A stretch of 64,000 nt of DNA from Tsukamurella conjunctivitidis (GTDB taxonomy: Bacteria > Actinomycetota > Actinomycetes > Mycobacteriales > Mycobacteriaceae): NCBI RefSeq assembly GCF_007858475.1, contig NZ_VIGX01000001.1:310001-374000 (forward strand), in the 5' to 3' direction. Below the pieces are notes generated by a model, which was not told the origin of the DNA, did not search any database, and saw only the letters and a program-made list of their open reading frames with translations. The first letter of the stretch is position 1. Each line of letters starts with the position of its first letter. A program made the position numbers and the translations under genes. Positions 5,036 to 47,904 of this stretch are shown in pieces.

Positions 5036-5089
5036 CCGATCCACACTAGTTCGCTGCACCGCCCGGCGGCGGGGTGCGGCGGGAGCCGG

Positions 5090-6705: not shown

Positions 6706-6761
6706 CTAACGTCCCTTCGATGCAGTGCTCATGTCGGGGGACATTCTGTCACCCGACGGTG

Positions 6762-7073: not shown

Positions 7074-7083
7074 GTGGTGCCTC

Positions 7084-9668: not shown

Positions 9669-9712
9669 CGGCTCACCCTAGCGCGGCTTAAGTGTGCTGC
9701 GAGCGGGTCGTG

Positions 9713-9728
9713 GTTCACTTAGGTGAAC
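9713..9728. promoter_or_regulatory. Palindrome upstream of the lipoprotein operon, possible operator
   Basis: GTTCAC and GTGAAC flank a 4-nt centre (TTAG), just upstream of the strong GGAGGAGG ribosome-binding site of the first tandem lipoprotein gene. The position and symmetry suggest a regulator-binding site. Which protein binds is unknown. Confidence 0.35.
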
Positions 9729-9745
9729 TCTGGAGGAGGCAATCC

Positions 9746-22071: not shown

Positions 22072-23493
<1,422 letters not shown>

Positions 23494-28604: not shown

Positions 28605-29594
28605 ATGGCCAAGCATGTGCGATACCTCGTCGCCATCCTGTGTGCCGTCGGTCTGGTCGCCGGCTGCGGCGGAGGCGGCTCGTCCGACTCCACCGCGGAC
28701 GCGAACGCGACGCGCACCGTCAGCACCGTCAAGGGTGACGTGACGATCCCCGCGAAGCCGAAGCGGGTCGTGCTGCTGAACTACAACCTCGCGGGCTACC
28801 TCTACGACCTCGGCCTGCCCGTGGTCTCGATGGTCACCGAGTACACCGACCGCGATCCCGCGAAGGCGCAGCCCTTCGATGCGTGGAAGGACGACTTCAC
28901 CAAGGCGGGCACGAAATTCATGCACTGGCCCGCCGGGGGCTACAACATCGAGGCGATCGCCGCCGAGAAGCCGGATCTGATCGTCGGTGGCGGCCTGGGC
29001 TTCCCGTTCAAGCAGACCAACGACGCCTACGACCGGCTCAAGGAGATCGCACCGACCCTCGTGGTCGACAACAAGCTGGAGAGCTGGAACCAGCAGTTCG
29101 AGTTCCTGGCGAAGGCCTTCGACCAGCCGCAGGTGTACCAGGACGCCGTGAAGAAGTACGACGACCGCGTCGCGCAGGTGAAGGCGGCCATCACGCCGCC
29201 CCCGGGCCCCGTGGCCTTCCTTTCGATGACCGCCCAGGGCAAGGCCTACGGCCTGATCGAGAACCGCGGCGTGCCCGCGGAGTTCGCCAAGCTCGGCATC
29301 GAGCCGGCGCCGATCTTCGCGAGCGGCAAGTTCAAGCCGTACACCGCCGGTGGCGATTCCTACGAGATCACCCAGGAGGCGCTGCCGAGCACGGTGACGC
29401 AGCCCTCGGTCTTCATCGTCGGCTTCAGCGGCCAGACCTTCGACGCGAACTCGCTGCGCTCGCAGCCGGTCTACGCCTCGCTCCCGGCCTTCGCCGCGAA
29501 CCGGGCCTTCGACCTGCCCTACTGGGTGCAGCGCCCCGACTTCGACAAGGCCATGGCCACGCTCGACGTCGTCGAGAAGATGTTCAAGAAGTAA
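28605..29594 (+). CDS. Iron-siderophore ABC transporter substrate-binding lipoprotein
   Basis: A 329-residue lipoprotein with a signal peptide and lipobox LVAGC, then the FepB/CeuE-type two-lobe fold. The N-lobe has KPKRVVLLNYN and LGLPVV, a helical backbone links the lobes, and the C-lobe has VFIVGFSG. It would capture ferric siderophore outside the membrane. No permease or ATPase of the FecCD/FecE type lies in the window. GGAGAAAGG precedes the ATG, and two IdeR-like boxes lie upstream. A 16-bp hairpin terminator follows. Confidence 0.9.
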   Translation: MAKHVRYLVAILCAVGLVAGCGGGGSSDSTADANATRTVSTVKGDVTIPAKPKRVVLLNYNLAGYLYDLGLPVVSMVTEYTDRDPAKAQPFDAWKDDFTKAGTKFMHWPAGGYNIEAIAAEKPDLIVGGGLGFPFKQTNDAYDRLKEIAPTLVVDNKLESWNQQFEFLAKAFDQPQVYQDAVKKYDDRVAQVKAAITPPPGPVAFLSMTAQGKAYGLIENRGVPAEFAKLGIEPAPIFASGKFKPYTAGGDSYEITQEALPSTVTQPSVFIVGFSGQTFDANSLRSQPVYASLPAFAANRAFDLPYWVQRPDFDKAMATLDVVEKMFKK

Positions 29595-29703: not shown

Positions 29704-32700
29704 TCAGTCCGGGTGGACCTGCACCATGGCCTCCTGCGTCACCGTCGCGACCAACTCGCCGCCGGCGTAGAAGTGACCGGTGGACAGGCCGCGCCCACCG
29801 CGCGCGACGGGGGAATCCACAGCCAGCAGGTGGAACTCGTCGAACCGCGTGTGCCGATGGAACCACAGCGACTGGTTCAGCGTCGCCGCGCCCACCCGGT
29901 CGTAGCCCCAGGCGAGGCCGTGCCGCGCGATGATCGGATCCTGCACGGTCAGGTCGGACGCCCACGCCAGCGCGGCGTCGTGGAGCACCTGATCGGCGGG
30001 GAGCGATCCGTCGGTGCGCATCCACACCAGGTTCCGGCTCGTCGCACCCTCGGCCCCACGCTTCTCCCACACCGGGGCCGAGGCGAAGCGCATCTCGATC
30101 GGGTGCGAGGCGTCCACGAGGGCGCGCAGGCGCGACTCGTGGCCGGCGAACCGCTCCGCCATCGTCGGCAGGGCCAGTGGGTCGCCCGCCTCCGGTGCGG
30201 TGTCGTCGTGCTCCAGCGGGTTCGGTGCGTCGGCCTGATAGGCGAGCGTCATGACGGCGAGGATCCGTCCGTCCTGTTCGACGGTGACCTGACGGTTCGC
30301 CGCGGTCCGGCCGTCCCGCAGGCGCGTCACCCGGTAGGTGAGGTCCTGCGTCACGGCGCCGAGCTCGACGAAGTGCGTGTGCGCGGCGTGCAGCGGCAGG
30401 GATTCGCCGGTCTCGGGCAGCGTCGCGGCCGAGGCCACGATCGCCTGCGCCAGGATCTGGCCGCCGAAGGTGTGCACGCCGACCTTCGCCGGATGCCGGC
30501 CGGTGAAGACATCGGGAGCGTCGGTCCCGCCGAGCCGGAGAACGTCGAGGAACTGCTCGAAGTCGCTGCCCGACGGCCCCTCCGGGATCGCCGACGCAAC
30601 CGCCCGCGCGGCGATCCCGGCGATCGAACGACCCTCCAGGACGTCGCGGGCGCTGAGCTCGAAGCCCCGCCGGCGGGCGCGGGAGACCACCTGCAGCGAG
30701 ACCAGCGAGTCGCCGCCCAGCTCCGCGAAGTCGTCGGACAGGCGCACCTCGTCCGTGCCGAGCAGCTCGCGGAACACCGTGAGGAGCGCGTCCTCGGCCG
30801 GCGTCTCGGGCGCGCGATCCGGGCCGGCGTCGGCGCGGGCGGCGGGGGCGGGCAGCGCGTCCCGGTCCAGCTTCCCGGTGGGGCCCAGCGGAAGCCGGTC
30901 CAGGACGACGTACGCCGCGGGCACCATGTGCGCGGGCAGCTCCGCGCCGAGGGCGGTGCGGATCGCCTCGGGGTCGGGCTCGGCACCGTCGTTGCGCACC
31001 AGGTAGCCGACGAGCCGGTCGTCGCGCACGAGGACCGATGCGGCGCGGACGCCGGGCTGCCGCGCCAGCGCGGTCTCGATCTCGCCCAGCTCGATCCGCA
31101 GGCCGCGGATCTTCACCTGGTGATCGGCGCGGCCGTGGAAGGAGAGGTTCCCGTCCTCGCGCCACGCGACCAGGTCACCCGTGCGGTACATCCGGGAACC
31201 CGGCGCGCCGAAGGGATTCGCGACGAAGGTCGCGGCAGTGAGATCGGGGCGGTGCAGGTAGCCCTGCGCCAACGAATCGCCCGCCAGGTACAGCTCACCG
31301 AGCACGCCCGTCCCCACCGGGTTGAGGCCCTCGTCGAGCACGTAGCAGGGCAGATTCGGATCGGGCCGGCCGATCGGCAGCGGTCCCGGATCGTCGGGTA
31401 CGTAGTGCCAGGTGACGGCGTTGATCGTCGCCTCGGTCGGACCGTAGCAGTTGAACAGGGCACGGCGGCCCCGTCCCCAATGGTCGGCGAGCTCCGGGTC
31501 GAGGCGCTCGGCGCCCACCATGAAGATCACCGACGGGTCGACCTCGGCGTGATCGGGCATCGCCGCGAGGAACGACGGCAGCAGGTTGATCACCGAGACG
31601 CGCTGCTGCTCGATGTACTCCAGCAGCTCGTCGCCGGGCACGCGCACCGCGTCGGGGGCGATCACCGAGGTGGCGCCCGCCATCAGCGGCCCCAGCACCT
31701 GCAGCACCGAGATGTCGAAGCTGGGCGAGCCGGTCTGCAGCACGCGCTCGTCCGCGCGGAAGCCCAAGGCCTCCATCACGAAGGCCATGAGGTCGGGGAG
31801 GCCGCGGTGACTCACCGCGACGCCCTTCGGCCGGCCGGTGGTCCCGGAAGTGTAGATGATGTACGCCAGGGCGTCCGGCGTGAGCCCCTCCCGGGCGTGC
31901 GCCGGGTCGGTCGCCTCGCCGGTCGTGTCCCACGGGTCCACGGCGTGCACCGGCACCCCGTCGGGCACGGAGGCGGTGCTGGCCTCCGGCACCTCGCCGC
32001 AGGTCAGCACGGCCGACGGTGCCGCGTCCTCCAGGAGGAACTGCAAGCGCGCCGCGGGGTACGACGGGTCGAGCGGAAGGTAGACAGCCCCGGCCTTGAG
32101 CACGCCGAAGACCCCGACGTACCAGGGCAGCCCGCGCTCGGCGAAGACCGCGACGACGTCCTGCGGCCGCACGCCGCCGGCGAGCAGGCGGTGCGCGAGA
32201 CGGTTCGCGGCCTCGTCCAGTTCCCGGTAGGTCAGCTGCCGGTCCTCGCACACCACCGCCGGATGGTCGGGGTTCGCGGCGACGTGCCCGCCGAAGACCT
32301 CGAGCAGCGGCCCGTACCGGCCGCGCAGCGGTACGTCACCCAGCGCCAGCATCGCCGCTCGCTCCTCGGCGGGCAGCGTCCCGATCGCCCCGACCGGGGT
32401 GTCGGGCGCGGAGACGACGGCGCGCAGCACCTCGGTGAGCCACCGGCCGTACGCCCGCATCGTGTCCGCGGAGAGCACGTCGGCGCGGTAACCGAGGCCC
32501 AGCGTCAGGCGCTCGCCGGGCAGGACCACCACGGTGAGGGGGTAGTGAGTGGCGTCGGTGATGTCGACGCCGGTGAGGTCGAGACCGGGCTCGACGGGCT
32601 GCACCTGCCGGTCGGAGAGCGGGAAGTTCTCCGTGACCACCATGGTGTCGAAGAGCTCCCCGAGGCCCGCGGCGCGGGTGATCTCGACCAGGCCCAGGTG

Positions 32701-35700
32701 GTGGTGATCGGAGAGGGCCAGGGCACGGTGATGGACGTCGGCCAGCACCTCGCCGACCGGCTGCTCAGGGGTCGCCCGCACGCGGATCGCGATGGACTCG
32801 CCGAGCTGCCCGACCATGGTGCCCACCTCGGGCACCTCCACCGGACGGCCGGAGACGGGGCACCCGAAGACCACGTCGCGGCGGCCGGTCAGGCGGCCCA
32901 GCAGCAGGCCCCACGCGGTGTGCAGCACGCTCGTGAGCGTCACGCCGCGGCTGCGCGCGAGCTCGGTGAGTCCATCGGTCAGGCCCTCGTCGAGCTCGAC
33001 CAGGATCCGCTCGGGCGCCGCGTCCGCGGCGCCGGAACCGGTGGAGGCGAGGAGCGTCGGCGCCTCGAGCCCGGCGAGCTCCTCGGCCCAGGCGGAGCGG
33101 GCCGCGGGGACGTCCCGCTCCGCGCGCCAGCGGTAGTAGCCGTCGAGCGGTGCCGAGCCGGGCGCCGCTGGGCCGCCGCCCAACTCGGCGTAGATCGCGA
33201 GCAGGGTGCGGCCCGCGATCGGCATGGACCAGCCGTCGAGCAGCGAGTGGTGATTGGTCAGGGCCAGGCGATGGCTCCGCGGGCCCGTGCGGCACAGCAG
33301 GAACCGGATCAGCGGGGCCTTCGACGGATCGAAGCGGCGCGCCTGCTCAGCCGCGGCGATCGCGGCGAACTCCGCCGCCGGGTCGGGACGGTCGGAGAGG
33401 TCGACGAAGGTGAAATCGGGGGCGACGGTCTCCGGAACCACCTGCACCACATCGGAGGAGGTGGTGTAGCCGAGGCGGGTCCGCAAGGAGGGCACGCGGC
33501 GCAGCAGCTCCGCGGCGGCCGCCGCCATCCGGTCCGGGTCGACGGGGCCGTCGAGGTACGTCGCGGCCTGCACCACGTAGACGTCGGGCTCGCCGTCGGC
33601 GAGCACCTGCGAGTGGTACGCGAGGCCCACCTGGAGCGCGGTGGCGGGCAGCACGTCGGCGATCGGACCGTCCTGCTCCAGCAGGTCGATGTCCGCCTGG
33701 TCCAGCGTCACCAGGGGCAGGTCCGACGGGGTGAGACCGCCACCGTCGGGCCCGATGCGCTCCGCGTGCGCGGCGAGCGCCCCCAGTGCCTGCGACCAGC
33801 ACTCCTGCAGCTCGGCGACCGCGGCGGCGCCGAGGACCCCGCCCGCGGCCGTCCACTCGACGGTGAGCCCGTCGTCGCCGTCGAAGCAGTTGATGGCGAG
33901 CACCTGCTCGAGCGCCTTGCCCGCGGGATCGACGACGGAGAAGGGCGTCTCGCCCGGCAGCCGCCAGCCGCGGTCGGGCGCGGTGAAGCGGCCGAGGTAG
34001 TTGAAGACCACGTCCGGCGCGTCCCCGAGGGGCCCGGCTCCGGGGTCGAGGTGCCGGAGGACGCCGTAGCCGACGCCTTGGCCGGGCACGCCCCGGCGGG
34101 CCTCCTTGACGGCGCGGACGAGCCGGCCGGCGGCGCCGCCGCCGGCGAGGGCCTCGTCGAGGTCCGCGTCCCCCGCCGGGAGCGGCAGGCGGACCGGGTG
34201 TTCCACGGTGAACCAGCCGACGGTGCGCGCGAGATCGGCGGAGCGGAGCACCTGCTCGCGCCCGTGGCCCTCGACGGTGACCGTCGCGGCCGACGGTCCC
34301 GCGGTTCCCGCGCGTCGTCGGCGCAGGCGCAGCGCCAGCGCGAGCGCGGCGAGGAGCGTCTCCTCCGCGTTGGCGCGATACGCGCTCGCCAAGGTCGTCG
34401 TGACCGCCGCCGCGACGGGCGCCGCGGTGCGGGTGTGCGTGGTCACGGCAGTGCCGACCCGATCGACGGTGGGATCGATCAGACGGTCGCCGAGCCGCTC
34501 GGCATCGGCGAGCGCGGTCCGCCAGTGTTCGAGTTCGCCGCGGTACACACCGCTCTCGCCCTGTTCCGCCAGCGCGAGCGCGTGGGCGCGCCAGGGCGTG
34601 GCCTCGGCGCGGACGGCGGGGGTGCGGCCCTCCGCCGCGTCGCGGTGCGCCTGCGGCAGGTCGTCGAGCAGGACGCGCCAGGAGACCCCGTCGACCGCGA
34701 GGTGATGGATCACCAGGACCAGCCGGTCCGGGCCGCCCTCGCCGTGCACGATCCGGGAGCGCAGCACGACGCCGGTCGCGGGGTCGAGTTCGGCGGCCAG
34801 CTCGGCGGCCGCGGCGTCGACGGTGCCGGTGCTCTCGCCTACCTCGAGCGGCGGGGCCGCCTCGTCGATCGTGAGTGTCCGCGAGCCCGAGAGGCGCAGC
34901 CGCAGTGCGGGATGCGCCGCGACGACGGACTCGAGTGCGGTCCGCACAGAGGAGGGAGTCGCGCCGGCGGGCAGCTCGGGGGCGATCCACTGTGCGTAGC
35001 CCGCGAGGTCGCGCGGGTCGGGGTTGAGCTCCAGGAGCGCGGCCACGATCGGCGGCGCGGGGAACTCTCCCTCGGCCGGAACGACGGGGCCCGCCTCCTG
35101 CTCCTCGGTCTCCGTCGCAATGGCCGCGAGCGTCGCGAAACTGCTGCCGGAGAGGAAGTCCCGGGGCCGGATCTCCAGGCCCTGGGCCCGCAACTCGCTA
35201 CAGACGGTGATGGCGCTGATGCTGTCGCCGCCCAGGCTGAAGAAGTCGTCGTCGACGCTCACCTCGGCGACGGCGAAGGCGGCCGCGACCACCGCGCACA
35301 GGGTGCGTTCGCGGTCGGTGCGCGGGGCGCGACCGCCGGACGCGGCGGCGGGCGCCGGGAGGGCGGCGCGGTCGAGCTTGCCGTTGATCGTCACCGGCAG
35401 CTCGTCGAGCACCATCACCGCGGACGGCACCATGTGGTCGGGCACGGCGGCGGCCAGCGCCTCCCGCACGCCGTCGGCGGTCACGGCGCCGGTCACGTAG
35501 CCCACCAGGCGGTCCCGGCCGGCGTCGGTGCGGACCAGGGCCGCGGCGCTCGTGACGCCCGCGACGGCGGCCAACGCGGTCTCGACCTCCGCCAGCTCGA
35601 TCCGGTAGCCGCGGATCTTGACCTGGCCGTCGCCGCGGCCGAGGTACTCGTAGCCGCTGCCGTCGGTACCGCCGCCGTGCCAGCGCACGCGGTCGCCGGT

Positions 35701-38307
35701 GCGGTACATGCGGGAACCGGGCTCGCCGAAGGGATCCGCGACGAACCGCTCGGCGGTCGCGGCGGGCAGATTCAGGTAGCCGCGAGCCAGGTGCGGCCCG
35801 GCGAGGTACAGCTCGCCGATCTCGCCGTCCCGGACCGGTTGCAGCGCAGCGTCGAGCGCGTAGGCCGCGGTGCCGGGAACCGCTCGGCCGATGACGGGCG
35901 TCTCGCCGGTCACGATCGCGGCGGTGGCGTCCACCGCGGCCTCGGTGGGGCCGTAGACGTTCACCGCGGGCACGCCGGTGTCCGCGATCCGCCGCCACAG
36001 CGCGGGCCCGGTCGCCTCGCCGCCCAGGATGAGCAGCGCCGGACGGTGATCGCCGTCGAGCAGCCCGGCGTCGATCAGCGGGGCCGCCATCGACGGGGTC
36101 GTGTCCACCACGTCGATCCGGTCGGCGCGGTAGGCGGCCAGGAGCGCGTCCGCGTCCCGGGCCGTGTCGGTGTCGTAGAGGTGCAGTGCGTGGCCGCTCA
36201 GCAGCCACAGCAGCTGGTCGAGGGAGGCGTCGAAGGAGAAGGAGTAGGTGTGCGCGCATTGCAGGCGCCGACCTGGCTCGCCCGCGGTCGCGAGGTCCGC
36301 CAGTGTCGCGCGATGGTGCCGCAGCAGGCTGGTGAGGCCGCCGACGCGGGCCGCGACGCCCTTCGGACGACCGGTGGAGCCGGAGGTGTGGATGACGTAC
36401 GCGAGGTGGTCCGGGTGCCGCGGCGCGGCGAGCTCGGACTCGGCGAGCGGGTCGCCCGACAGGGCGTCGAGACGCGCGCGGACTCCCGCGTCGTCGAGCT
36501 GCAGCGACGGAGCACCCTCGGGCGCAACGGAACCGGACACGGTGAGGAGAAGCGCGGGCCGCGAATCCTCGACGAGTTCCGCGTGCCGCGCGGCGGGGTG
36601 CGCGGGGTCCAGGTACTGGTACGCGGCACCCGCGTCGAGCACCGCCAGCAGCGCGACGACCAGGTCGACGCTCCGCGGTAGCGCGAGTGCCACCACGTCC
36701 TCGGCGCCGATGCCCTCCGCGCGTAGCAGCCGCGCGGTGCGGTGCACGCGATCGGCCAGCTCCCCGAAGGTGAGCCGCTCGTCGCTGTGAACCAGGGCGA
36801 TCGCCGCGGGATCGCGTCGGGCCTGCGCGTCGAGCGCGTCCGGGACGACCTGGGCGGAATGCGGCGATTCCGGGGTGCGGGCCCGGTCGATGAGCGCGTC
36901 CCGCAGGTCGGCGGGAAGCAGCTCGACCTCGCCGAGCGCGGGTGCCTCGGTGGAGGTCAGCGCGGTGATGAGCGCAGTCACGGTGTCCAGGCGGCCCTGC
37001 ACCTGCTCGGCCGATGCGGACCGCGCGTCCACCTCGAAGCCCACGAGGAGCCCGCCACCGTGATGATTCGGCCCGCTCGCTCCGCTCCCGGCGCCGGCCG
37101 TGGGGATCACGCTGAGCCCGTAGTCCTCCGGCGGTCCGCCCGCCACATTGCGCATGGTGCCCGCGGAGCCCGCGAAGTCCAGCGTCAGGTCGAACGCCTT
37201 GAGGTTGATGCCGCGACCGTGCAGCAGCGCGCCCACGTTCGGGGCGCCCAGATCGCGGGGCAGGTCCTCGCCGCGGTAGCGCTGATGCTTCCGCATGCGG
37301 CGCATCGCCTCCGCCACCCGGGTGCTCAGGTCCGCCAGGCGATCCTCGGCCCGCACCGCGATGCGCAGTGGGAGCACGTTCACCGCCATGGCGGGGGTGC
37401 GCAGGGCGACACCGCCGCTGCGGCACATGAGCGGCATCGCGAAGACCACGTCGGACTCGCCGAGCGCGCGGTGCAGGAAGGCGGCGTAGCAGCCGATCAG
37501 CGCTTCGCCCCACGTGGTTCCGGACTCGTCCGCCACGCGGCGCAGGGCGTCGAAGACCTCGGGGGACAACTCGGTACGGGCCACGTGCACCGCGCCCGCC
37601 GGACCGTCGAAGCCGGGGCGCTCCGGCAGCTCCGGCAGGGGAGTCAGCTCGTCGCGCCAGTAGGCGCGGTCGGTCTCGTGCCGCTCGCTCTCCCGGTACT
37701 CGCGATCGGCCGCCACGAAATCGGCGAAGGAGCCGAACGGCGACTTCGGCGGCTCGGCGCCGGACAGCAGTGCCGTGTAGTGGGCCGCGACGCGCCGCGA
37801 GAGCATCGCGGCGGAGTAGCCGTCGAAGACCAGGTGGTGACCGAGCTGGGTGTACCAGACCTCGGTGTCCGACAGGCGCAGGATGCGGAAGGCGAAGAGG
37901 TCCCGGTCGGTCATCGCCGCGCAGTGCGCCGCCAGGCGGGCGCGTTCGGCGGTGATCGCCTCCTCCGCCGCCGCATGCGGATCGGCCTCGCCCCGCAGGT
38001 CGACGACGTCCGGCTCGAGCTCGGCGGCACCATCGATCCACTGCCGCGGCCCGTCCGGGGTCTCGACCACCCGCAGGCGCAGGCTGCCCGCCTCGGCGAC
38101 GGTGCGCGCGATCGCCGCACGCAGCGCGTCGACGTCGATCGGGCCGTCGCCCGCGATCTCCAGCACGTCGCCCACCACGTAGTAGGGCGAATCCGGTTCC
38201 AGCCGTTGGGCGTTCCAGATCCCGAGCTGAGCCGCCGTGAGCGGCAGCAGGTCAGGTGCGTCGGTGCCGGCCGGAGCAGGCGAAGGGGCGGCCTCTGCGA
38301 GGGTCAC
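29704..38307 (-). CDS. Two-module siderophore NRPS, C-A-T-E-C-A-T with C-terminal TesB-type thioesterase domain
   Basis: A 2,867-residue cytoplasmic megasynthase. Domains by residue: condensation (about 20-455; HHLVFDG at 157), adenylation A1 (475-980; [11 protein letters not shown] at 640), carrier (LGGDS, Ser 1029), epimerisation (1080-1530; HHLAVDG at 1201, then VFNYLGRF), condensation (1550-1970; HHSLLDG at 1686), adenylation A2 (1990-2480; [11 protein letters not shown] at 2152), carrier (LGGDS, Ser 2534), and from about 2580 an acyl-CoA thioesterase II double-hotdog domain (FGGQILAQA; Asp in WASDLT, Thr in AATLNQS, Gln in VTQEAM). The first C domain resembles the EntF starter type, so it should accept DHB from the free carrier. 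E sets D stereochemistry at residue 1. The TesB-type ending replaces the usual alpha/beta-hydrolase thioesterase. GTG 38307 has AGGAG 8 nt upstream. Confidence 0.93.
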
Positions 38308-38334: not shown

Positions 38335-38535
38335 CTAGCGGGAAAGTTCGGCGCGCTGCGGACGGAGGTCCGTCCACACGGCCTCGATGTGGTCGCGGCA
38401 GTCCTCGCGGGAGGCGGGACCGAACTCGACGGTCCAGCCCGCGGGCACCTCGGCGAAGCGCGGCCACAGCGAGCGCTGTGCGAGGTCGTTGCGGAGCACG
38501 AGGAAGCCGGCGTCCGGCTCGTCGAACGGGTTCAT
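38335..38535 (-). CDS. MbtH-like protein
   Basis: A 66-residue MbtH-like protein, a small partner that binds NRPS adenylation domains and supports their activity and solubility. Signature residues are present: S-x-WP (RSLWPRF), P-x-GW (VPAGW), and C-x10-D-x-RP (EDCRDHIEAVWTDLRP). Its start overlaps the aryl-carrier stop (ATGA) and the NRPS starts 27 nt after its stop. The three genes form one translationally linked operon. Confidence 0.95.
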   Translation of the reverse strand: MNPFDEPDAGFLVLRNDLAQRSLWPRFAEVPAGWTVEFGPASREDCRDHIEAVWTDLRPQRAELSR

Positions 38536-38768
38536 CCGCCCACCACGAGCTGCTGCCAGTGCGCCAGTTCCGGCTGCTCCGCGAGGTCCGGGAACTCGAG
38601 GTCGGCGGCACCCGCGTCGCGCCAGCGCTGGATCAGCGTCATCACCCGCACCGAGTCGAGGCCCAGGTCGAAGAGGTTGTCGTCGTCCGCGATCGACTCT
38701 GCGGGCACCTGCAGCAGCTCGGCGACGTCGGCGCGCACGCGGTCTGCGGTCAGCGGTGAGGTGGACAT
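38532..38768 (-). CDS. Free-standing aryl carrier protein (ArCP)
   Basis: A 78-residue carrier protein with the phosphopantetheine attachment motif LGLDS (Ser 39). Its place at the head of the NRPS operon, together with the DHB enzymes nearby, indicates that it carries DHB loaded by the EntE-like ligase and delivers it to the first condensation domain. In EntB and DhbB this domain is fused to isochorismatase. Here the isochorismatase (46203-46826) is separate. No phosphopantetheinyl transferase lies in the window. An IdeR-like box is 42 bp upstream of the start. Confidence 0.88.
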   Translation of the reverse strand: MSTSPLTADRVRADVAELLQVPAESIADDDNLFDLGLDSVRVMTLIQRWRDAGAADLEFPDLAEQPELAHWQQLVVGG

Positions 38769-38809: not shown

Positions 38810-38828
38810 GTAGGTAAGCCTACACTTC
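38810..38828. promoter_or_regulatory. IdeR/DtxR-like iron box 3
   Basis: GTAGGTAAGCCTACACTTC matches 15 of 19 positions of the IdeR consensus, with an intact left half (AGGTAAGCCTA). It lies in the 77-bp gap between the divergent NRPS operon and the acyltransferase gene, so both should respond to iron. Confidence 0.7.
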
Positions 38829-38845: not shown

Positions 38846-39472
38846 ATGCTGGACCACGCGACGGTCGGCCGGCGGCTCGAGGGCCGTGAGCACCCGCCGA
38901 TCGGCGACTTCCTCGCCGGGCTCGATCTGCCGGGCTTCGACCTGCGGGTCGTCGATCCGGACTCGTCCGACCTCGACGTCGTGCACGGGTGGATGAACAC
39001 CCCGGAGGTCGCCGCCGGATGGGGGCAGGCGTGGCCCCGCGAGCAATGGCGCCGCCACCTGATCGAGCAACTCGCGGGAACGTACTCGGTGCCCGTCCTC
39101 GTCGGCCGCGGCGGTGCGGACATCGCCTACGCCGAGCTCTACCGCGCCCACGCCGACGTGGTGGCCCGGTGCTACGACTCGGACCCGCACGACGTGGGCG
39201 TGCACCTCGCGATCGGCTCTCCGGCCCACCGGGGCGGCGGATGGGGCGCCCGCATCGGCGCCGCACTCATGACCGCCGGCTTCCGCGCGGACCCCGCGTG
39301 CCGACGGATGCTCACCGAACCCGACGTCCGGAACGCGGCCGCCGTCGGCGTGGGTGCGTCGCTGGGCATGACCCGCCTCGGTGTCGTCGAGTTGCCGCAC
39401 AAGACCGCCGTCCTGTTCGCCGCGGAGCGCGAGAAGTTCGCGCCGCGGCCCGACCTTCGGAGTGAATCATGA
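38846..39472 (+). CDS. Siderophore-type GNAT acyltransferase (IucB/MbtK-like)
   Basis: A 208-residue GNAT-fold enzyme of the Acetyltransf_8 family, recognised by VHGWMNTPEVAAGWG and the later HLAIGSPAHRGGGWG acyl-CoA-binding segment. Relatives IucB and MbtK transfer an acyl group to an N-hydroxy side-chain amine to make a hydroxamate. Here the presence of a formyltransferase for the same kind of job leaves its role open: it may act on a second hydroxyornithine or on another position. It lies beside IdeR-like box 3, and its stop overlaps the start of the siderophore-interacting protein gene (ATGA). Confidence 0.85.
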   Translation: MLDHATVGRRLEGREHPPIGDFLAGLDLPGFDLRVVDPDSSDLDVVHGWMNTPEVAAGWGQAWPREQWRRHLIEQLAGTYSVPVLVGRGGADIAYAELYRAHADVVARCYDSDPHDVGVHLAIGSPAHRGGGWGARIGAALMTAGFRADPACRRMLTEPDVRNAAAVGVGASLGMTRLGVVELPHKTAVLFAAEREKFAPRPDLRSES

Positions 39473-40365
39473 AGTGGAACGATTTCGTCCTCACCCTCAC
39501 CGCGACCTCGCAGGTCGCGGAGAACCTGCTGCGCCTCGAGTTCGAGGTGGGCGGCGGCACCGCCGGGGGCTACGTCCCCATCGCGCCCGGTGACGAGTCG
39601 ATCGCCTTCTACTTCTCGCCCGACGGCGAGGAACTCCACGCCAGGCCCTCGGACGATCCGGGCGCGCTCGGTGGGTGGGAGATCGCCGATCCGGAGCGCA
39701 GCCTCGGCCACCGCAACTACTCGGTGCGCGCCTACGACCCGGCGACCCGACGCATGCTCGTCGACGTGGCCGAGCACGGCCACGGGCCGGCCATCGACTG
39801 GTTCCGCGCCGCCCGCCCCGGCTGGCGGCTGCTCGCCGCCGGCCCGCGCTCCTGGTACGCGCCGTCCGCCGACGCCTCGCGCCACGTCCTCGCCGGCGAT
39901 CTCGCGGCCCTGCCCGCGCTCGCCCGCATCCTGGAGGAGACGCCGGAGGGCGTGGACGTGACGGTGATCGCGGAGGTCCTCGACCGCAGCGAGATCGCCT
40001 ATCTGCCCGAGCGGCCCGGCACGGAGGTGATCGAGGTCCTCGGCACGGGGAACGGTGCGGCGCCCAGCCGCCTGCCGGAGGTGCTGCGCACCGTCGACCT
40101 GCCGACCGACGGGTACCTGTGGCTCGCGGGGGAGGCGGCGGACACCCGCGCCGCGAAGAAGCACGTGCGTGGCCTCGGGTGGGCGCGCGACCGCGCCGAC
40201 GTGGTGGGCTACTGGCGGCACGACGCCGAGGCCTGGACCAAACGTTTCGAAGCCGCGGGCGAGGAGCGTCTGCGCGCGGTCTTCGCCGATGCCCTCGCCG
40301 CGGGCAAGTCCCGCGACGAGGCCACCGACCTCTACGAGCAGGCCCTCGAGGCTGCGGGCCTGTAG
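39469..40365 (+). CDS. Siderophore-interacting protein (FAD-dependent ferric-siderophore reductase)
   Basis: A 298-residue flavoprotein of the ViuB/SIP family. RNYSVRAYD is the FAD-binding motif, and AGDLAALPAL and WLAGEAADTRAAKKHVR form the NAD(P)H-binding part, ending with VVGYWR as in SIP proteins. It would reduce Fe3+ in the imported siderophore in the cytoplasm to release iron. In mycobacterial IrtA the same activity is fused to an ABC transporter. Here it is separate and coupled to the acyltransferase gene (ATGA). Confidence 0.93.
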   Translation: MKWNDFVLTLTATSQVAENLLRLEFEVGGGTAGGYVPIAPGDESIAFYFSPDGEELHARPSDDPGALGGWEIADPERSLGHRNYSVRAYDPATRRMLVDVAEHGHGPAIDWFRAARPGWRLLAAGPRSWYAPSADASRHVLAGDLAALPALARILEETPEGVDVTVIAEVLDRSEIAYLPERPGTEVIEVLGTGNGAAPSRLPEVLRTVDLPTDGYLWLAGEAADTRAAKKHVRGLGWARDRADVVGYWRHDAEAWTKRFEAAGEERLRAVFADALAAGKSRDEATDLYEQALEAAGL

Positions 40366-40411: not shown

Positions 40412-41443
40412 TCAGCCCGCGTTCTTCGCGGCGGCCGAGAGCAGGGGCACGTATCGATCCAGCAGCCACGGCAGGTCGAGCACGTTGGGCGAGCTGACTG
40501 CGTAGACGAGCGGCGGATCGGTCAGCGGCACATAGGCCTTGCGCTGCACGGCCTTCAGGCTCGTGAACGACGGGTTGGCCTCCGTCGCCTCGCGCTTCGC
40601 GGCGTCGAGGTACCACGAGGTGAGCACGTCGGCGTTGTACTTCGGCACGTTCTCCCAGCTCACCGGCGCCGCGAACTTGCCGGGAGGGGTGGCCTCGCGC
40701 AGGGCCGCCAGCTCGGGCAGGACGGTGAAGCCGAAGCCCTGCAGGAGCTGCACCCGCGGATCGGTGTCGAAGTAGAAGTTGAGGCTCTCCGTCATGGTGC
40801 CGCTGGCGGCAGCGACGGTCTTGCCGGCGAACTCCGGGTGTGCGGCCTTGACCTCGGCGATCCGCTTGTCGGTCTCCGCGATCAGCGTCTTCGCCTCGGC
40901 CTCGCGGCCCAGGGCCTTCCCGACCAGCGTGGTCTGGTCCTGCCACGAGGTCTGCCAGTTGCGGCCCGGCTGCGCGACGGTGGGCGCGATCTTGCTCAAC
41001 TGTGCGTACTGGTCGGCGGTGAGGCCCGCCTGCACCGAGAGGATCACGTCGGGCTTGAGGGCGGCGATCTGCTCGAGCGGCAGCGACTGGCTCGACTCGG
41101 GCAGCAGGACCGGCTTGGCGTCGCCGAGCTTCTCCTGCACCCACGGCATGATGCCGCCGCCGTCCTTGCCGAGCTCCGACTTCATGTCGCGCATGCCCAC
41201 CGGAGTCACGCCCAGCGCGATCGCCGCCTCGGTGCTGCCCCAGCCCAGGGTGACCACGCGCTCGGGTCGCGCCGTGATCTCGGTCGTGCCGAGCGCGGAG
41301 GTGATCGACACGGGGAAGCCCGCGTCGTGCTGCGCGTGCTCGTTGTTCGACGAGCCCGACCCGCACGCTGCGGCGCCCGTGACCAGGGCGGCGGCGGTGG
41401 CGAGGGCAAGGGCGGTGCGAGTGATGCGGGAAGACCCGAACAC
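40412..41443 (-). CDS. Second iron-siderophore ABC transporter substrate-binding lipoprotein
   Basis: A 343-residue lipoprotein (signal peptide, lipobox TGAAAC) of the ferric-siderophore binding family, with a His-rich linker after the lipobox, then RPERVVTLGWGSTEAAIALG and the ALKPDVILSVQ strand. It has low similarity to the lipoprotein at 28605, so the two may bind different iron complexes (its own siderophore, a degradation product or a foreign one). GTG 41443 follows GAGGAG by 6 nt. It diverges from the monooxygenase operon around IdeR-like box 4. Confidence 0.88.
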   Translation of the reverse strand: MFGSSRITRTALALATAAALVTGAAACGSGSSNNEHAQHDAGFPVSITSALGTTEITARPERVVTLGWGSTEAAIALGVTPVGMRDMKSELGKDGGGIMPWVQEKLGDAKPVLLPESSQSLPLEQIAALKPDVILSVQAGLTADQYAQLSKIAPTVAQPGRNWQTSWQDQTTLVGKALGREAEAKTLIAETDKRIAEVKAAHPEFAGKTVAAASGTMTESLNFYFDTDPRVQLLQGFGFTVLPELAALREATPPGKFAAPVSWENVPKYNADVLTSWYLDAAKREATEANPSFTSLKAVQRKAYVPLTDPPLVYAVSSPNVLDLPWLLDRYVPLLSAAAKNAG

Positions 41444-41560: not shown

Positions 41561-42853
41561 ATGGGACAGCAGCACGCGATCGCCGATGTGGTCGGGATCG
41601 GGGCCGGACCGTCGAATCTGGGGCTGGCCGCGGCCCTCGATGAGCGGAACCGGACGGGTCTGCCGCCGCTCTCGATGGCGATCCTCGAACGCAAGCCGTC
41701 GTTCGCCTGGCATCCGGGCATGCTCCTCGACGGCGCCACCATGCAGATCGCCTTCCTCAAGGACCTGGTGACGCTCCGCAACCCGCGCAGCCCGTTCACG
41801 TTCCTGAGCTACCTCGAGGCGCGCGGCAGGCTCGTCGACTTCATCAACCACCAGACCTTCTTCCCGACGCGCGTCGAGTTCACCGACTACCTCTCCTGGG
41901 TCGCCGAGAGCGTCTCCGCGCGGATCGACTACGGCACCACCGTCACGGCGATCGAGCGCGTGGACCCCGTCGTCGACGGTGCGCGGTGGCTCGTCCGGTA
42001 CACCGGGCCCGACGGGGACGGCACCCTGCGCGCCCGGTCCGTCGTCGTGGCGACCGGCCTGCGTGAGCGGCTGCCCGAGTGGGCCCACGCAGGTCCCCGC
42101 CTGTTCCACAATCACCGGCTGCTCGAGCACCTCGCGTCGGCGGACCTGGATCCCGCTGCACCGCACCGCTTCCTGGTCGTGGGCGGCGGGCAGAGTGCCG
42201 CCGAGGTCGCGCAGTACCTGCACCGCACCTACCCGAACGCGGTGGTGGAGAGCGTCTTCAACTCGTACGGCTTCCAACCCGCCGACGACAGTCCGTACGC
42301 CAACAAGGTCTTCGATCCGGATGCCGTCGACGACTTCTACGATGCTCCCGCCGAGGTGCGGAGCGAACTGATGACGCGGCACGCCACCACCAACTACGGC
42401 TGCGTCGACCTCGAGCTGATCAACGAGCTCTACGCCGTCGAGTACCAGGAGAAGGTCTCCGGCCATCGCCGCCTGCTGATGCGCCCCGCCACCGTCGTCA
42501 CCTCGGCAGTGGCGTCCGAGACGGGCGTGCGGGTCACCCTGCGCGACCGTATCGCCGATGCGACGAGCGGCCAGGACTACTCCGCCGTGGTGTGCGCCAC
42601 CGGCTTCCGTTCGATCGGCGTCACCGACGTGCTCTCCGGGTGGGACGTCGCGCCCGAAAGGCTGCGCGTCGGACGCGACTACGTACTGTCCCTCGATGAC
42701 GAGCGGCTCGACGGCCTGTACGTCCAGGGCGCCACCGAATCCACCCACGGCCTCGGCTCGACGCTGCTGTCGAACGTCGCCGTCCGCGCCGGCGAGATCC
42801 TCGACGGGATCGTCGCCGACACCACCTTGACCACCGTCGCGAAGGGAGCATGA
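41561..42853 (+). CDS. L-ornithine N5-monooxygenase (siderophore type)
   Basis: A 430-residue flavin monooxygenase that hydroxylates the side-chain amine of ornithine (or lysine), the first step to a hydroxamate. It carries the FAD motif GIGAGPSNLGLA at residues 12-23, LKDLVTLRNPRSPFTF, the NADPH motif GGGQSAAEVA and the ATGFR segment. The FNSYGFQPADDSPYANK region favours ornithine, as in PvdA/SidA. GAGGGAG precedes the ATG. Its stop overlaps the formyltransferase start (ATGA). Confidence 0.92.
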   Translation: MGQQHAIADVVGIGAGPSNLGLAAALDERNRTGLPPLSMAILERKPSFAWHPGMLLDGATMQIAFLKDLVTLRNPRSPFTFLSYLEARGRLVDFINHQTFFPTRVEFTDYLSWVAESVSARIDYGTTVTAIERVDPVVDGARWLVRYTGPDGDGTLRARSVVVATGLRERLPEWAHAGPRLFHNHRLLEHLASADLDPAAPHRFLVVGGGQSAAEVAQYLHRTYPNAVVESVFNSYGFQPADDSPYANKVFDPDAVDDFYDAPAEVRSELMTRHATTNYGCVDLELINELYAVEYQEKVSGHRRLLMRPATVVTSAVASETGVRVTLRDRIADATSGQDYSAVVCATGFRSIGVTDVLSGWDVAPERLRVGRDYVLSLDDERLDGLYVQGATESTHGLGSTLLSNVAVRAGEILDGIVADTTLTTVAKGA

Positions 42854-43788
42854 TGCGCGTCGTCACCTTCGGCTTCCAGACCTGGGGCCACCGCACACTG
42901 TCCGCCGTCCTCGATGCCGGCCACGAGGTCGCACTCGCTGTGACCCACCCCGTCTCGAACAATCCGTACGAGATGATGTGGAACGACTCCGTCGAGGAGC
43001 TCGCCGCGTCCCGCGGTGTGCCGGTGCATCTCGCGAAGAAGCCCGACGAGGCCCTCTTCGAGGCGGTTTCGGCTGCCGAGCCGGACATCATCGTCGCCAA
43101 CAACTGGCGCACCTGGTTGCCGAAGTCGATCTATTCGATGCCCCGCCTCGGCACCCTCAACATCCACGACTCGCTGCTCCCGAAGTACGCCGGGTTCTCG
43201 CCGCTGATCTGGGCGCTCATCAACGGTGAGACCCACGTGGGCGTCACCGCGCACCTGATGGACGAGGGGCTGGACACCGGCCCGATCATCGCGCAGGAGT
43301 CCGTCGCCGTCGGCCCGACCGACCGCACCGTCGACCTATTCCACCGCACCGTCGATCTGATCGGCCCGCTGGTGGCGCGCTCGCTCGGCGAGCTGGAAGC
43401 CGGTACGGCCCAGCCGATCCCGCAGGATCCCGCAGCCGCGACATACTTCCACAAGCGCTCCGACGCCGACAGTCGCATCGACTGGTCCTGGCCCGCCGAC
43501 GCGATCGAGCGGCTCATCCGCGCGCAGTCGGATCCGTACCCCAACGCACACACGATCTTCCGCGGCCAGCGCCTGGCGATCACCGCGGCTTCCGTCTCCA
43601 CCAAGCGCTACGGGGGCACGCCCGGTCGCGTCTGCGTTCCCGACGGTGACGGCATCGCCGTCGTCGCCGGCCCCGACGCGTGGCGCGCCGGGAACCCGGC
43701 GCTGATCGTCGAGACCGTCCGCACGGAGGACGGCGCCGAGCACCCCGCCGCGAAGATCTTGGGCGACTCCGGCGCCTACCTCGGCTGA
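42850..43788 (+). CDS. N5-hydroxyornithine formyltransferase (Fmt-like)
   Basis: A 312-residue relative of methionyl-tRNA formyltransferase that uses N10-formyl-tetrahydrofolate. The catalytic Asn-His-Asp set is visible in NIHDSLLPKYAG and EGLDTGPII. Its coupling to the ornithine monooxygenase (ATGA overlap) indicates that it formylates N5-hydroxyornithine to N5-formyl-N5-hydroxyornithine, as in coelichelin and rhodochelin biosynthesis. ATG 42853 is an alternative start. The C-terminal half keeps the Fmt-like barrel. Confidence 0.9.
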   Translation: MMRVVTFGFQTWGHRTLSAVLDAGHEVALAVTHPVSNNPYEMMWNDSVEELAASRGVPVHLAKKPDEALFEAVSAAEPDIIVANNWRTWLPKSIYSMPRLGTLNIHDSLLPKYAGFSPLIWALINGETHVGVTAHLMDEGLDTGPIIAQESVAVGPTDRTVDLFHRTVDLIGPLVARSLGELEAGTAQPIPQDPAAATYFHKRSDADSRIDWSWPADAIERLIRAQSDPYPNAHTIFRGQRLAITAASVSTKRYGGTPGRVCVPDGDGIAVVAGPDAWRAGNPALIVETVRTEDGAEHPAAKILGDSGAYLG

Positions 43789-43804: not shown

Positions 43805-44554
43805 ATGCACGCATTCATCACCGGCGCCGCCTCCGGGATCGGCGCCGCGACGGCCCTGCGGCTCGCGCGCCGCGGGCCCGTCGCACTCGCCGACCGCGAC
43901 GCGGACGGCCTGGTCGCCACCGCGCGGGCCGTCACCGCCGCGGGCGGCACGGTCACCTCGCACGTCGTCGACGTGACCGACGCCGGCGCCGTCGAGGCCG
44001 CCCTCGACGCCGCGGAGACGGCGGGCGGGCCGGTCGATGCGCTCGCGCACTGCGCGGGCGTCCTGGTGGCCGGGCCGATCCTCGAGACCGCCTCGGCGGA
44101 CTGGGCCGCGGCGCTGGCCGTGAACCTGACGGGCACGGTGAACGTGCTCACCGCCGCCGCCCGCCGCATGGCGGACCGGAGCGCGGGCGCTGCGGTGGTC
44201 GTCGGCTCCAACGCGGGCAACGGCCCACGGGTGGGCCTGGGCGCCTACGGGGCGTCGAAAGCCGCCGCGCACAACGCGACCCTGACGCTCGCCCTGGAAC
44301 TGGCCGGCAGCGGCGTGCGGATCAACGTGGTCGCCCCCGGTTCCACCGCCACCCCCATGCAGACGGCCTTCGGCGGCGCGGCCGCCGCCGAGGCGGCGAT
44401 CGCGGGCGATCTGTCGCGGCACCGGCTCGCGATCCCGTTGGGGCGCATCGCCGATCCCGAGGACATCGCCGGGGCGATCGACTACCTGCTCTCGCCCGAC
44501 GCGCGGCACGTGACCGCGCAGGTACTCACCGTCGACGGAGGCGCCACCGTATGA
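43805..44554 (+). CDS. entA: 2,3-dihydro-2,3-dihydroxybenzoate dehydrogenase (EntA type)
   Basis: A 249-residue short-chain dehydrogenase that oxidises 2,3-dihydro-DHB to DHB with NAD+. It has TGAASGIG, the active Ser in GSNAGN, YGASKAA, and the EntA-like [11 protein letters not shown] phrase, which separates it from ordinary SDRs. It lies 16 nt after the formyltransferase and directly before the DHB ligase (ATGA overlap). The symbol follows the E. coli pathway and is assigned by similarity and context. Confidence 0.9.
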
Positions 44555-46206
44555 CCAGCACGCAGACCGGATTCCTTCCCCGGTTCTTTCCGCCCGAGTT
44601 CGCCGCGCGGTACCGCGCGGCGGGTTACTGGACTTCAGAGACCTTCGCGGACTTCCTGCCCGACGCGGCGGCCCGCTTCGGCGACGCCGAGGCGCTCGTC
44701 GCCGAGGACCGCGCCGGCGCGGTCGTCCGGCTGAGCTACCGCGGTCTCGACGCCGCAGCCGCGGACGTGGCCGCCGGGCTCCGCGCCCGCGGCATCGCCG
44801 AGGGCGATCGCGTCGTGCTGCAGCTGCCGAACACCGCCGACTTCGTCACCGTGCTGTTCGGGCTGTTCCGGATCGGCGCGGTGCCCGTCTTCGCGCTGCC
44901 CGCGCACCGGCGCAGCGAGCTCGTGCACTTCGTGAAGACGTCCGGGGCGAAAGCCCTGATCACGGCGGCGACCATCAGCCGCTTCGACCACCGCGGCCTC
45001 GCCGCCGAGGTCGCCGCGGAGACCGGCGTCGAGGCGCTCGTCGTCGACGACGATCCGTTCGGCGTCGGCGAAGACGACGCCGCGAACGGGACGCCCGTCA
45101 CCGTCGACCCGGAATCCCTGGCCTTCCTGCAGCTCTCCGGCGGCACCACGGGTGTGCCGAAGCTGATCCCGCGGACGCACGCGGACTACCTGTACTCGGT
45201 GCGCGAGTCCGCGAAGATCTGCGGCCTCGGACCCGGCACGCGCTTCCTGGTGGTCCTGCCCGTGGCGCACAACTTCCCGATGAGCAGCCCCGGCATCCTC
45301 GGGGTGCTGTGGGCGGGCGGCACCGTCGTGCTCGGGACGGACCCCGCACCGTCGAAGGCCTTTCCCCTGATCGAGGCCGAGCGGGTGACCATGACCTCGC
45401 TCGTGCCGCCGCTCGCGATGCTCTGGCTGCAGGCGGTGCCGGGCACGACCGCCGACCTGTCCAGCCTGGACGTCCTGCAGGTGGGCGGCGCCAAGTTCCC
45501 GCCCGAGGCCGCGCGCCGCGTGACGCCCGAACTCGGCTGCCGCCTGCAGCAGGTCTTCGGGATGGCCGAGGGCCTGGTCAACTACACGCGCGACGACGAC
45601 CCCGAGGAGCTCGTGCTCGGCACGCAGGGCCGCGCGATCTCGCCCGACGACGAGGTGCGCGTCCTCGACGAGGACGGCACGCCCGTCGCGCCCGGTGAGC
45701 CGGGGCTGCTGTGGACCCGCGGGCCGTACACCATTCGCGGCTACCTGGGCGGCGTGGACGCCGAGTCCTTCGACGCGGAGGGCTTCTACCGTACCGGCGA
45801 CATCGTGCGGCGGCTGCCGAGCGGCCACCTGGTGGTCGAGGGCCGCGCCAAGGACCAGATCAACCGCGGCGGCGAGAAGATCGCCGCCGAGGAGGTGGAG
45901 AACCACCTCATCGCCCACCCGCTCGTCCTCGACGCGGCCGTCGTGGCCGTGGCCGACGACTTCCTGGGGGAGCGGACCTGCGCCGTCGTCCTCACGGGCG
46001 AGGGCGAGCGGCCCACCGTGCCCGAGCTGAAGAAGTTCGTCCGCTCGCGCGGGGTGGCCGAGTACAAGGTGCCCGACAGGGTGGAGTTCGTCGACGAATT
46101 CCCCACGACGGGCGTCGGCAAGATCAGTCGCCGCGAACTGCGGCGCGCGCTGGCGGATCGCCTCCGGCACGAGGACGAGGCGCGCACGAACGAGGAGAAG
46201 CTGTGA
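44551..46206 (+). CDS. entE: 2,3-dihydroxybenzoate-AMP ligase (EntE/DhbE type)
   Basis: A 551-residue acyl-adenylating enzyme that activates DHB with ATP and loads it on the aryl carrier protein. The GFLPRFFPPEFAARYRAAGYW-like start, the LSGGTTGVPKLIPRTH phosphate loop, FGMAEGLVNYTR and the C-terminal NRGGEKIAAEEVE and GKISRRELR segments are those of EntE/DhbE. The start overlaps entA (ATGA) and its stop overlaps the isochorismatase gene (GTGA). Confidence 0.95.
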   Translation: MTSTQTGFLPRFFPPEFAARYRAAGYWTSETFADFLPDAAARFGDAEALVAEDRAGAVVRLSYRGLDAAAADVAAGLRARGIAEGDRVVLQLPNTADFVTVLFGLFRIGAVPVFALPAHRRSELVHFVKTSGAKALITAATISRFDHRGLAAEVAAETGVEALVVDDDPFGVGEDDAANGTPVTVDPESLAFLQLSGGTTGVPKLIPRTHADYLYSVRESAKICGLGPGTRFLVVLPVAHNFPMSSPGILGVLWAGGTVVLGTDPAPSKAFPLIEAERVTMTSLVPPLAMLWLQAVPGTTADLSSLDVLQVGGAKFPPEAARRVTPELGCRLQQVFGMAEGLVNYTRDDDPEELVLGTQGRAISPDDEVRVLDEDGTPVAPGEPGLLWTRGPYTIRGYLGGVDAESFDAEGFYRTGDIVRRLPSGHLVVEGRAKDQINRGGEKIAAEEVENHLIAHPLVLDAAVVAVADDFLGERTCAVVLTGEGERPTVPELKKFVRSRGVAEYKVPDRVEFVDEFPTTGVGKISRRELRRALADRLRHEDEARTNEEKL

Positions 46207-46826
46207 GCCTGCCGAAGACGGTCGTCTACGACCTGCCCGAGATCGAGTGCGTCGACACCGTCGACTGGACGGTCGAGCCGTCGCGCTCGGTGCTCCTGAT
46301 CCACGACATGCAGGAGCACTTCGTGGGGCCTTTCGAGCGCGACGCGGAGCCGCTGCGCACCGTCGTGCCGAACATCGTGGCGCTGCGCGCCGAGGCCCGC
46401 GCCGCCGGCGTCCCCGTCGTCTACACGGCGCAGCCGGGCGATCAGGACCCGGAGGAGCGGGCCCTGCTCACAGATTTCTGGGGGCCGGGCCTGAAGACGG
46501 CGAACCAGGACATCATCGGCGAGCTGACCCCCGCCGACGACGACATCCTGCTCACCAAGTGGCGCTACAGCGCCTTCGCCAAGTCGGACCTCGCCGAGCG
46601 GATGCGGGCCTGGGGCCGCGATCAGCTCGTGATCGTGGGCATCTACGCGCACATCGGGATCATGACCACGGCGCTCGACGCCTTCATGCGCGACGTGCAG
46701 CCCTACGTGGTGCGCGACGCCGTCGCCGACTTCTCCGCCGAGGATCACGCGGGCGCTCTCACCTACGTGTCGGGCCGATGCGGCAGAGTGGAGACCACAG
46801 CCAAGGTTCTGGAGGCATTGCGATGA
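46203..46826 (+). CDS. entB: Isochorismatase (EntB N-terminal domain type)
   Basis: A 207-residue hydrolase that converts isochorismate to 2,3-dihydro-DHB and pyruvate. LLIHDMQEHFV, KWRYSAFAKSDL and GIYAHIGIMTTALDAFMRD are family motifs. The protein ends after the catalytic domain: the carrier domain that is fused in EntB/DhbB is encoded separately at 38532-38768. GTG 46203 overlaps the ligase stop and the next gene overlaps its own stop. Confidence 0.93.
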   Translation: MSLPKTVVYDLPEIECVDTVDWTVEPSRSVLLIHDMQEHFVGPFERDAEPLRTVVPNIVALRAEARAAGVPVVYTAQPGDQDPEERALLTDFWGPGLKTANQDIIGELTPADDDILLTKWRYSAFAKSDLAERMRAWGRDQLVIVGIYAHIGIMTTALDAFMRDVQPYVVRDAVADFSAEDHAGALTYVSGRCGRVETTAKVLEALR

Positions 46827-47902: not shown

Positions 47903-47904
47903 GG

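Follow-up and report, generated by a model that had tools for sequence, protein, structure and literature searches.

The release domain of a nonribosomal peptide synthetase (NRPS) decides whether its product is linear, cyclic, or oligomeric, and release is known to proceed via alpha/beta thioesterases (TEs), reductases, terminal condensation domains, or trans-acting enzymes. How an NRPS frees its product when it ends in none of these domains is the question raised by a siderophore locus in Tsukamurella conjunctivitidis, located in the 64,000-nucleotide stretch of DNA analyzed here (contig NZ_VIGX01000001.1, positions 310,001 to 374,000; hereafter the window). The NRPS of this locus carries a TesB tail, kin of a common enzyme of fatty-acid metabolism, which suggests a different way of freeing the finished peptide.

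The NRPS is encoded on the reverse strand (29704..38307) as a single open frame of 2867 amino acids with a GTG start, and its domain order, C-A-T-E-C-A-T-TesB, was assigned with Pfam and TIGR01720. Pfam placed three Condensation-type, two AMP-binding, and two PP-binding stretches on it, then both TesB halves. The middle Condensation stretch (approximately residues 1110-1545; 33673..35010 on the reverse strand, limits approximate) follows the first module and is an epimerization domain, with a TIGR01720 score of 94.3 bits against a cut-off of 74.2; its best PDB matches were chains of PvdL, bacitracin synthase 3, gramicidin S synthase 1, and tyrocidine synthetase A, some of which we take to be epimerization-domain structures. 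The first C domain had its top scores against the MxcG and EntF models.

The TesB tail (approximately residues 2580-2867; 29704..30570, reverse strand) was assigned by Pfam, PDB sequence matches, and triad alignment. Its 4HBT_3 half (PF13622, 30247-30486, reverse strand; residues 2608-2687) matched with an E value of 5.2e-13 and 49.5 bits against a cut-off of 24.3, and its Acyl_CoA_thio half (PF02551, 29731-30108, reverse strand; residues 2734-2859) with an E value of 2e-25 and 89.6 bits against a cut-off of 21, while 4HBT_3C (PF20789) matched residues 2731-2862 (E 7.4e-18). The best PDB sequence matches along the tail were the TesB entries 4qfw (E 1.4e-34), 4r4u (1.6e-34), and 1c8u (2e-32). 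The TIGR00189 equivalog model scored 184.9 bits, under its cut-off of 292.85, so that the tail is related to this family but not a member by that cut-off. Asp2785 (codon 29953-29955), Thr2809 (29881-29883), and Gln2858 (29734-29736), all on the reverse strand, align with the Asp/Thr/Gln that we take to be the TesB catalytic triad.

These results bear out the anatomy given in the original prediction and support its interpretation in part. One open frame does run from Ser2534 of the second carrier domain (codon 30706..30708, reverse strand, by sequence reading) into a TesB part starting at nucleotide 30570, the proposed TesB-like sequence of about 288 residues was borne out by both hotdog halves and the PDB matches, and the expected Asp, Thr, and Gln are in place. 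Their loss on alignment, named in advance as grounds for abandoning the idea, did not occur across the 11 fused copies recovered from Tsukamurella genomes (Asp in 11/11; Thr in 10/11, with Ser in genome G125; Gln in 11/11). The claim that the NRPS has no terminal reductase, C domain, or alpha/beta TE was upheld by the Pfam search, which after the second carrier detected neither a PF00975 TE nor a reductase or a C domain. The claim that no GxSxG thioesterase is present stood in that PF00975 had no match in the window (11 matches genome-wide), but not to the letter, as a literal GLSTG string lies at residues 2840-2844 of the tail. The serine of this string is threonine in two of the 11 fused copies; four of five standalone TesBs of Tsukamurella carry GMSNG at the site, and the pattern had no match in the fifth. 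Given that the serine is not conserved, we do not read the string as a nucleophile elbow.

The genes around the NRPS point to an iron-scavenging pathway. Also on the reverse strand are an MbtH-like protein (38335..38535, PF03621) and a stand-alone carrier protein (38532..38768, PF00550), probably an aryl carrier, judging from the locus. The forward strand encodes a GNAT acetyltransferase (38846..39472, PF13523, with a start codon of our choosing), a siderophore-interacting protein (39469..40365, PF04954), an ornithine/lysine N-monooxygenase (41561..42853, PF13434, extent by homology), a formyltransferase (42850..43788, PF00551), and genes for 2,3-dihydroxybenzoate (DHB) supply: a 2,3-dihydro-DHB dehydrogenase-like SDR of the EntA/DhbA type (43805..44554; TIGR04316 scored highest among the NCBIfam models, with 231 bits against a cut-off of 300), an EntE-type DHB-AMP ligase-like protein (44551..46206; TIGR02275 scored highest, with 673 bits against a cut-off of 723.55), an isochorismatase (46203..46826, extent by homology; PF00857 at 46287-46802), and a DhbC-type isochorismate synthase-like protein (46823..47902, start approximate; PF00425, with DhbC as the top-scoring model, short of its cut-off). 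The set is followed by two genes for ABC transporters that have membrane and ATPase domains (47872..51404, forward strand, starts approximate; PF00664, PF00005), and iron-siderophore substrate-binding proteins (PF01497) are encoded at 40412..41443 (reverse strand) and 28605..29594 (forward strand). A 427-amino-acid protein at 27197-28480 (reverse strand) had no Pfam match; most relatives keep it next to the cluster.

A partial DtxR/IdeR-type box lies between the divergent genes (38811..38822, forward strand); first noticed by eye, it gave one pattern match against 0.01 expected. It recurs at the same place in 11 relatives, of which eight have it exactly, two differ at a single base, and one differs at two bases. 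The full 19-mer iron-box consensus had no match at up to three mismatches. The carrier, the MbtH-like protein, the siderophore-interacting protein, and the first substrate-binding protein were present in nine of nine stretches compared (L065-L073), the monooxygenase and formyltransferase in all five of these that reach that far and in 6/6 further stretches, and an EntE relative in 11/11 genomes with the fusion. The GNAT gene was next to the siderophore-interacting protein only in the window, G201, G100, and G030 among the stretches compared, and was absent from the T. tyrosinosolvens locus. DHB genes (equivalogs below cut-off), a stand-alone carrier, and C-A-T modules together mark a catecholate siderophore NRPS, and the PF13434 N-monooxygenase and PF00551 formyltransferase mark hydroxamate tailoring. 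By its gene content, the locus is a siderophore cluster of the catecholate-hydroxamate kind, and it lacks an alpha/beta TE.

Adenylation domain codes were read at nine positions by assumed motif places, and the mapping of code to substrate is likewise assumed; the tenth position (Lys) was added by script, not read. The A1 code was DADD[I/L]G[V/L]VD in 12/12 sequences read, and given that it is acidic, A1 likely activates a basic residue. For A2 (30832-32310 in the window, and relatives), we read DILNFVCIN in eight sequences and DVWNFVAVN in three, the domain being absent in G148. These nine positions give no confident A2 substrate, and solved A-domain relatives offered no usable specificity clue, but with two code types among the fused NRPSs, species groups may differ in the residue added last.

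We propose that assembly would begin with the first C domain receiving DHB from the stand-alone carrier. The first residue, probably basic, would be epimerized to the D form, and C2 and A2 would add a second residue, possibly N-hydroxylated, formylated ornithine supplied by the neighboring enzymes. The TesB domain, as a re-specialized copy of acyl-CoA thioesterase II, would then take the pantetheine-bound peptide from T2 and hydrolyze it directly. TesB enzymes activate water, a role that would fall here to Asp2785, Thr2809, and Gln2858. Without a nucleophilic serine, no acyl-enzyme would form, and EntF-style storage, oligomerization, and lactonization should be impossible; given that no serine ester could form, EntF-style chain stockpiling would be closed, and a linear monomer is the expected product. 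We infer the release role, hydrolysis, substrate, and product of the TesB domain from sequence, and consider it probable that the domain is the release domain, freeing a linear monomeric acid by hydrolysis of the peptidyl thioester, in line with the linear acid suggested in the original prediction.

A complete double hotdog directly after the last carrier supports release, as do the lack of a TE in the window and the presence, in two sister species, of a canonical TE-ended NRPS at the same locus. The retained triad, the purifying selection on the fused domains, their single origin from tesB, and their six group-specific positions, described below, count in its favor too. In genomes G053 and G158, which are without the TesB NRPS, this locus is occupied by another NRPS, about 2280 residues long, with GWSLGG in its tail (locus stretches of TE-ended NRPSs: L136/L137 for G053, L134/L135 for G158, L126 at 3282-10169, and L129 at 3434-10066). 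The locus is recognizable in both by a luciferase-like flanking gene, the siderophore-interacting protein, the monooxygenase, the formyltransferase, and the DHB set. Genomes G125 and G148 hold both NRPSs, the second of which carries a Pfam Thioesterase domain in each. Those of G053 and G158 are 76-84% identical to the NRPS beside the TesB NRPS in G125, and the second NRPS of G148 is 86% identical to the TE-ended NRPS of G125. With the G125 TE as tblastn query, matches were confined to the stretches of G125, G148, G053, and G158; the window had none, nor did the stretches from genomes with the TesB NRPS only, some of which span only part of the cluster.

In G158, an intact stand-alone carrier gene (L134 and L135 joined, 22690-23010) adjoins the luciferase-like gene that is normally beyond the NRPS block; this looks like a deletion of the block, with MbtH, the NRPS, and more gone. 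Given that the TE-ended NRPS of G053 and G158 resembles those beside the TesB NRPS in G125 and G148, the locus has held two NRPSs, one TE-ended and one TesB-ended, differently kept and lost. In G148, the same TesB NRPS is recognizable (83% identity over residues 1-2029; L065, 6577-12867, adjoining the TE-ended NRPS), but A2 and nearly all of the TesB domain are gone with the frame intact, roughly the last 15-19 residues of TesB remaining. The gene is therefore dispensable in G148, where the TE-ended NRPS is also present, and this counts against the release reading. Lying beside the TE-ended NRPS, it resembles a decaying duplicate function. A further NRPS on contig 54 of G000 (L132, 3284-amino-acid frame) ends, by eye, in a thioester reductase-like domain. 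Tsukamurella offers a natural comparison: some species have the TesB-ended NRPS, others have a TE-ended one at this locus, and yet others have both.

Several observations count against release by the TesB domain and bear on its rivals. A stand-alone PF00975 protein (242-amino-acid frame) is encoded elsewhere in the genome and could act in trans. This would suit a TesB domain that serves as an in-cis editor with an EntH or type II TE function, clearing misloaded or stalled acyl groups from the carriers while the product exits by attack of the hydroxamate nitrogen, through a TE in trans, or by slow hydrolysis. Such a role has precedent in enterobactin synthesis, where the hotdog protein EntH serves as an editor, and TesB acts on acyl-CoA. 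However, the TesB domain is terminal, right after the last carrier, no other release candidate was recognized in the window, and the tail is kin to the broad-range TesB, not to EntH; we therefore regard editing as unlikely.

The pocket of the domain and the chemistry of the expected product bear on a second rival, in which something other than water (an amine, a hydroxyl, CoA, or a second chain) accepts the chain from the TesB domain, yielding a conjugate or dimer. Positions 2612, 2649, 2730, 2743, 2782, and 2789 are fixed in the 11 fused domains, and none of the 25 standalone sequences compared, all from the same taxonomic family, shares the fixed residue at any of them; position 2782 precedes Asp2785 by three residues, and position 2789 follows it by four. 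Given that the triad is kept and six positions are group-specific, the catalytic mechanism was apparently kept and the pocket changed, and a changed pocket would suit a new acceptor. Moreover, a DHB-dipeptide with one hydroxamate would have few iron donors, leaving room for another chain fate, so transfer to another acceptor or to a partner chain stays a rival. Nonetheless, the retained triad is hydrolytic and we know of no transferase in the TesB family, and we hold transfer to be quite improbable.

Substitution rates speak to whether the domain works at all. The fused domains had a median dN/dS of 0.239 (maximum 0.377; NG86, 45 pairs from 10 of the 11 domains) and the Tsukamurella standalone TesBs a median of 0.130 (maximum 0.297; NG86, 10 pairs), indicating that the fused domain is under purifying selection, weaker than that on the standalone copy. 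This faster evolution, together with the change of Thr to Ser in G125, counts against the release reading and could suit a catalytically dead domain with a role in assembly or dimerization, as hotdog proteins oligomerize. Yet Asp and Gln are present in 11/11 copies, as is Thr or Ser at position 2809, and purifying selection persists, making a dead domain very unlikely.

Although the genome of the window is in 343 contigs, the chance that the fusion is an assembly error or a frameshift joining two genes is practically nil and this explanation was rejected, given that independent assemblies share the in-frame join (nine further genomes, 69-91% identity over carrier and TesB; 92% over TesB in G188), and that it is one annotated CDS in T. 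tyrosinosolvens NCTC13231.

The fusion described in the original prediction was confirmed in 11 of the 16 Tsukamurella genomes examined, with a decayed remnant in a twelfth (G148), and this recurrence rules out the frameshift artefact that the prediction had named as a refutation. It lies in a whole single frame in nine (G000, G188, G030, G100, G086, G168, G113, G137, and G070); G125 and G201 have upstream breaks in the frame, but TesB is continuous there with residues 366-2864 and 1248-2867, respectively. It was absent from G053, G158, G178, and G198, the last of which is 93% complete in 890 contigs. The T. tyrosinosolvens CDS (WP_068741418.1) is named only "non-ribosomal peptide synthetase", and since it matches G168 without a difference over its last 372 residues, the two may be the same species. 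A T. tyrosinosolvens record labelled "plasmid 26" (NZ_LR134468.1, L133) carries groL and htpG and is probably a mislabelled contig of the chromosome.

Wider searches used overlapping sets of genomes sampled from larger groups, with profile searches within Actinomycetota, and scored a few best candidates per genome (up to 12 in the family search; five or six in the class, order, phylum, and C2-A2-T2 searches). A named-genome collection gave 12 loci, of which the eight close matches were all from Tsukamurella and the other four were distant TesB-like genes; T. spumae is one species that carries the fusion. Across 201 genomes of the family (15 Tsukamurella), TesB lay in a frame longer than 2800 amino acids in 10, all Tsukamurella, and the longest other TesB frame among the matches listed had 682 amino acids. 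Among the matches listed, the carrier aligned in none of 394 genomes of the class except the two Tsukamurella drawn, three fused copies were found in 397 genomes of the order (four Tsukamurella), and of 296 Actinomycetota genomes only the window's own showed the fusion. Plasmid records from all hosts gave 164 matches, and among the 25 listed, one, from T. tyrosinosolvens, covered at least 80% of carrier and TesB. A TE-bearing ortholog of this NRPS in another genus was not found in 121 genomes, with at most 44% identity to C2-A2-T2 outside Tsukamurella among the matches listed. The fusion is genus-wide and, within those limits, was unseen outside Tsukamurella. The remaining ground for refutation, that it is common and characterized, was answered in part: it is common across this genus, and no description of a TesB-ended NRPS or of a Tsukamurella siderophore NRPS was found in the literature searched, mostly outside subscription journals.

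Other candidate TesB fusions appeared in class-search frames of 800-1071 amino acids. Those of G440, G554, and G400 were rejected, as codon composition indicated an out-of-frame upstream part and TesB as a unit of its own. In G223 (L095), codon composition did not separate the upstream part from TesB, and the upstream residues showed no carrier or adenylation motif by eye. The fusion check took in these four and left out G455, G547, G487, G342, and G253, of similar frame size. A few standalone TesB rows from the class search aligned from model position 48-52, in frames of 327-493 amino acids.

The origin of the tail, by duplication of a primary-metabolism gene that was then fused to an assembly line, is unusually clear. 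A tree built from 41 TesB sequences placed all 11 fused domains in one group (100/100) and five Tsukamurella standalone TesBs in another (99/95), with the two joined (100/100) apart from 19 TesBs of other genera of the family. This was unchanged in a 39-row tree with the two longest outgroup rows removed, and the alternative that the fused domains fall outside all standalone TesBs was rejected (AU p 0.0014, for a group named after the first tree was seen). A standalone TesB, 53-55% identical, is kept in 10/10 fused genomes of the family search, and that of the window's genome is 53% identical to the fused domain. Given the tree grouping and the retained standalone copy, the phylogeny indicates that Tsukamurella's own tesB was duplicated and one copy fused to the NRPS, in a single origin. 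On balance, we lean slightly towards an NRPS termination class in which a captured housekeeping acyl-CoA thioesterase II, a double hotdog with its pocket re-tuned for a peptidyl carrier, would enforce a linear monomeric siderophore via no covalent acyl-enzyme. If true, the fused double hotdog would be another fold for NRPS release, with a non-covalent mechanism, and the tail a compact part for engineering linear products.

Set against known systems, the tail resembles TesB/acyl-CoA thioesterase II in its whole double hotdog and its Asp/Thr/Gln triad (PF02551, PF13622; PDB 1c8u, 4qfw, 4r4u), but differs in being fused to an NRPS, in its sub-cut-off TIGR00189 score, and in the six group-specific changes. 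The NRPS resembles catecholate NRPSs of the EntF/DhbF/MxcG type in its first C domain and in the stand-alone carrier, MbtH, and DHB genes alongside, whereas it has two modules with an epimerization domain and a TesB ending in place of an alpha/beta TE or a reductase, the latter being the ending of MxcG. The TesB domain takes the same place as NRPS type I thioesterases (PF00975), at the end of the assembly line, but has another fold, no PF00975 match, and no Ser-His-Asp. EntH is likewise a hotdog thioesterase working with a DHB NRPS, but it is a single hotdog acting in trans as an editor.

The heterobactin and rhodochelin pathways of Rhodococcus, a Mycobacteriales relative, yield siderophores with hydroxamate chemistry according to passages of PMC5550956, and a reference title within that paper describes heterobactins as mixed catecholate-hydroxamate. 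No NRPS outside Tsukamurella was more than 44% identical to C2-A2-T2 (121 genomes, among the matches listed). TE15 enzymes are separate, single-hotdog proteins of polyketide pathways. In enediyne polyketide synthesis, these hotdog enzymes were shown to terminate chains (passages of PMC4147253). Compared by description, TE15 and the Tsukamurella tail are both hotdogs, but TE15 is not fused to an NRPS. Hotdog chain terminators were thus already known, and what is new here is an NRPS with a putative release domain of another fold.
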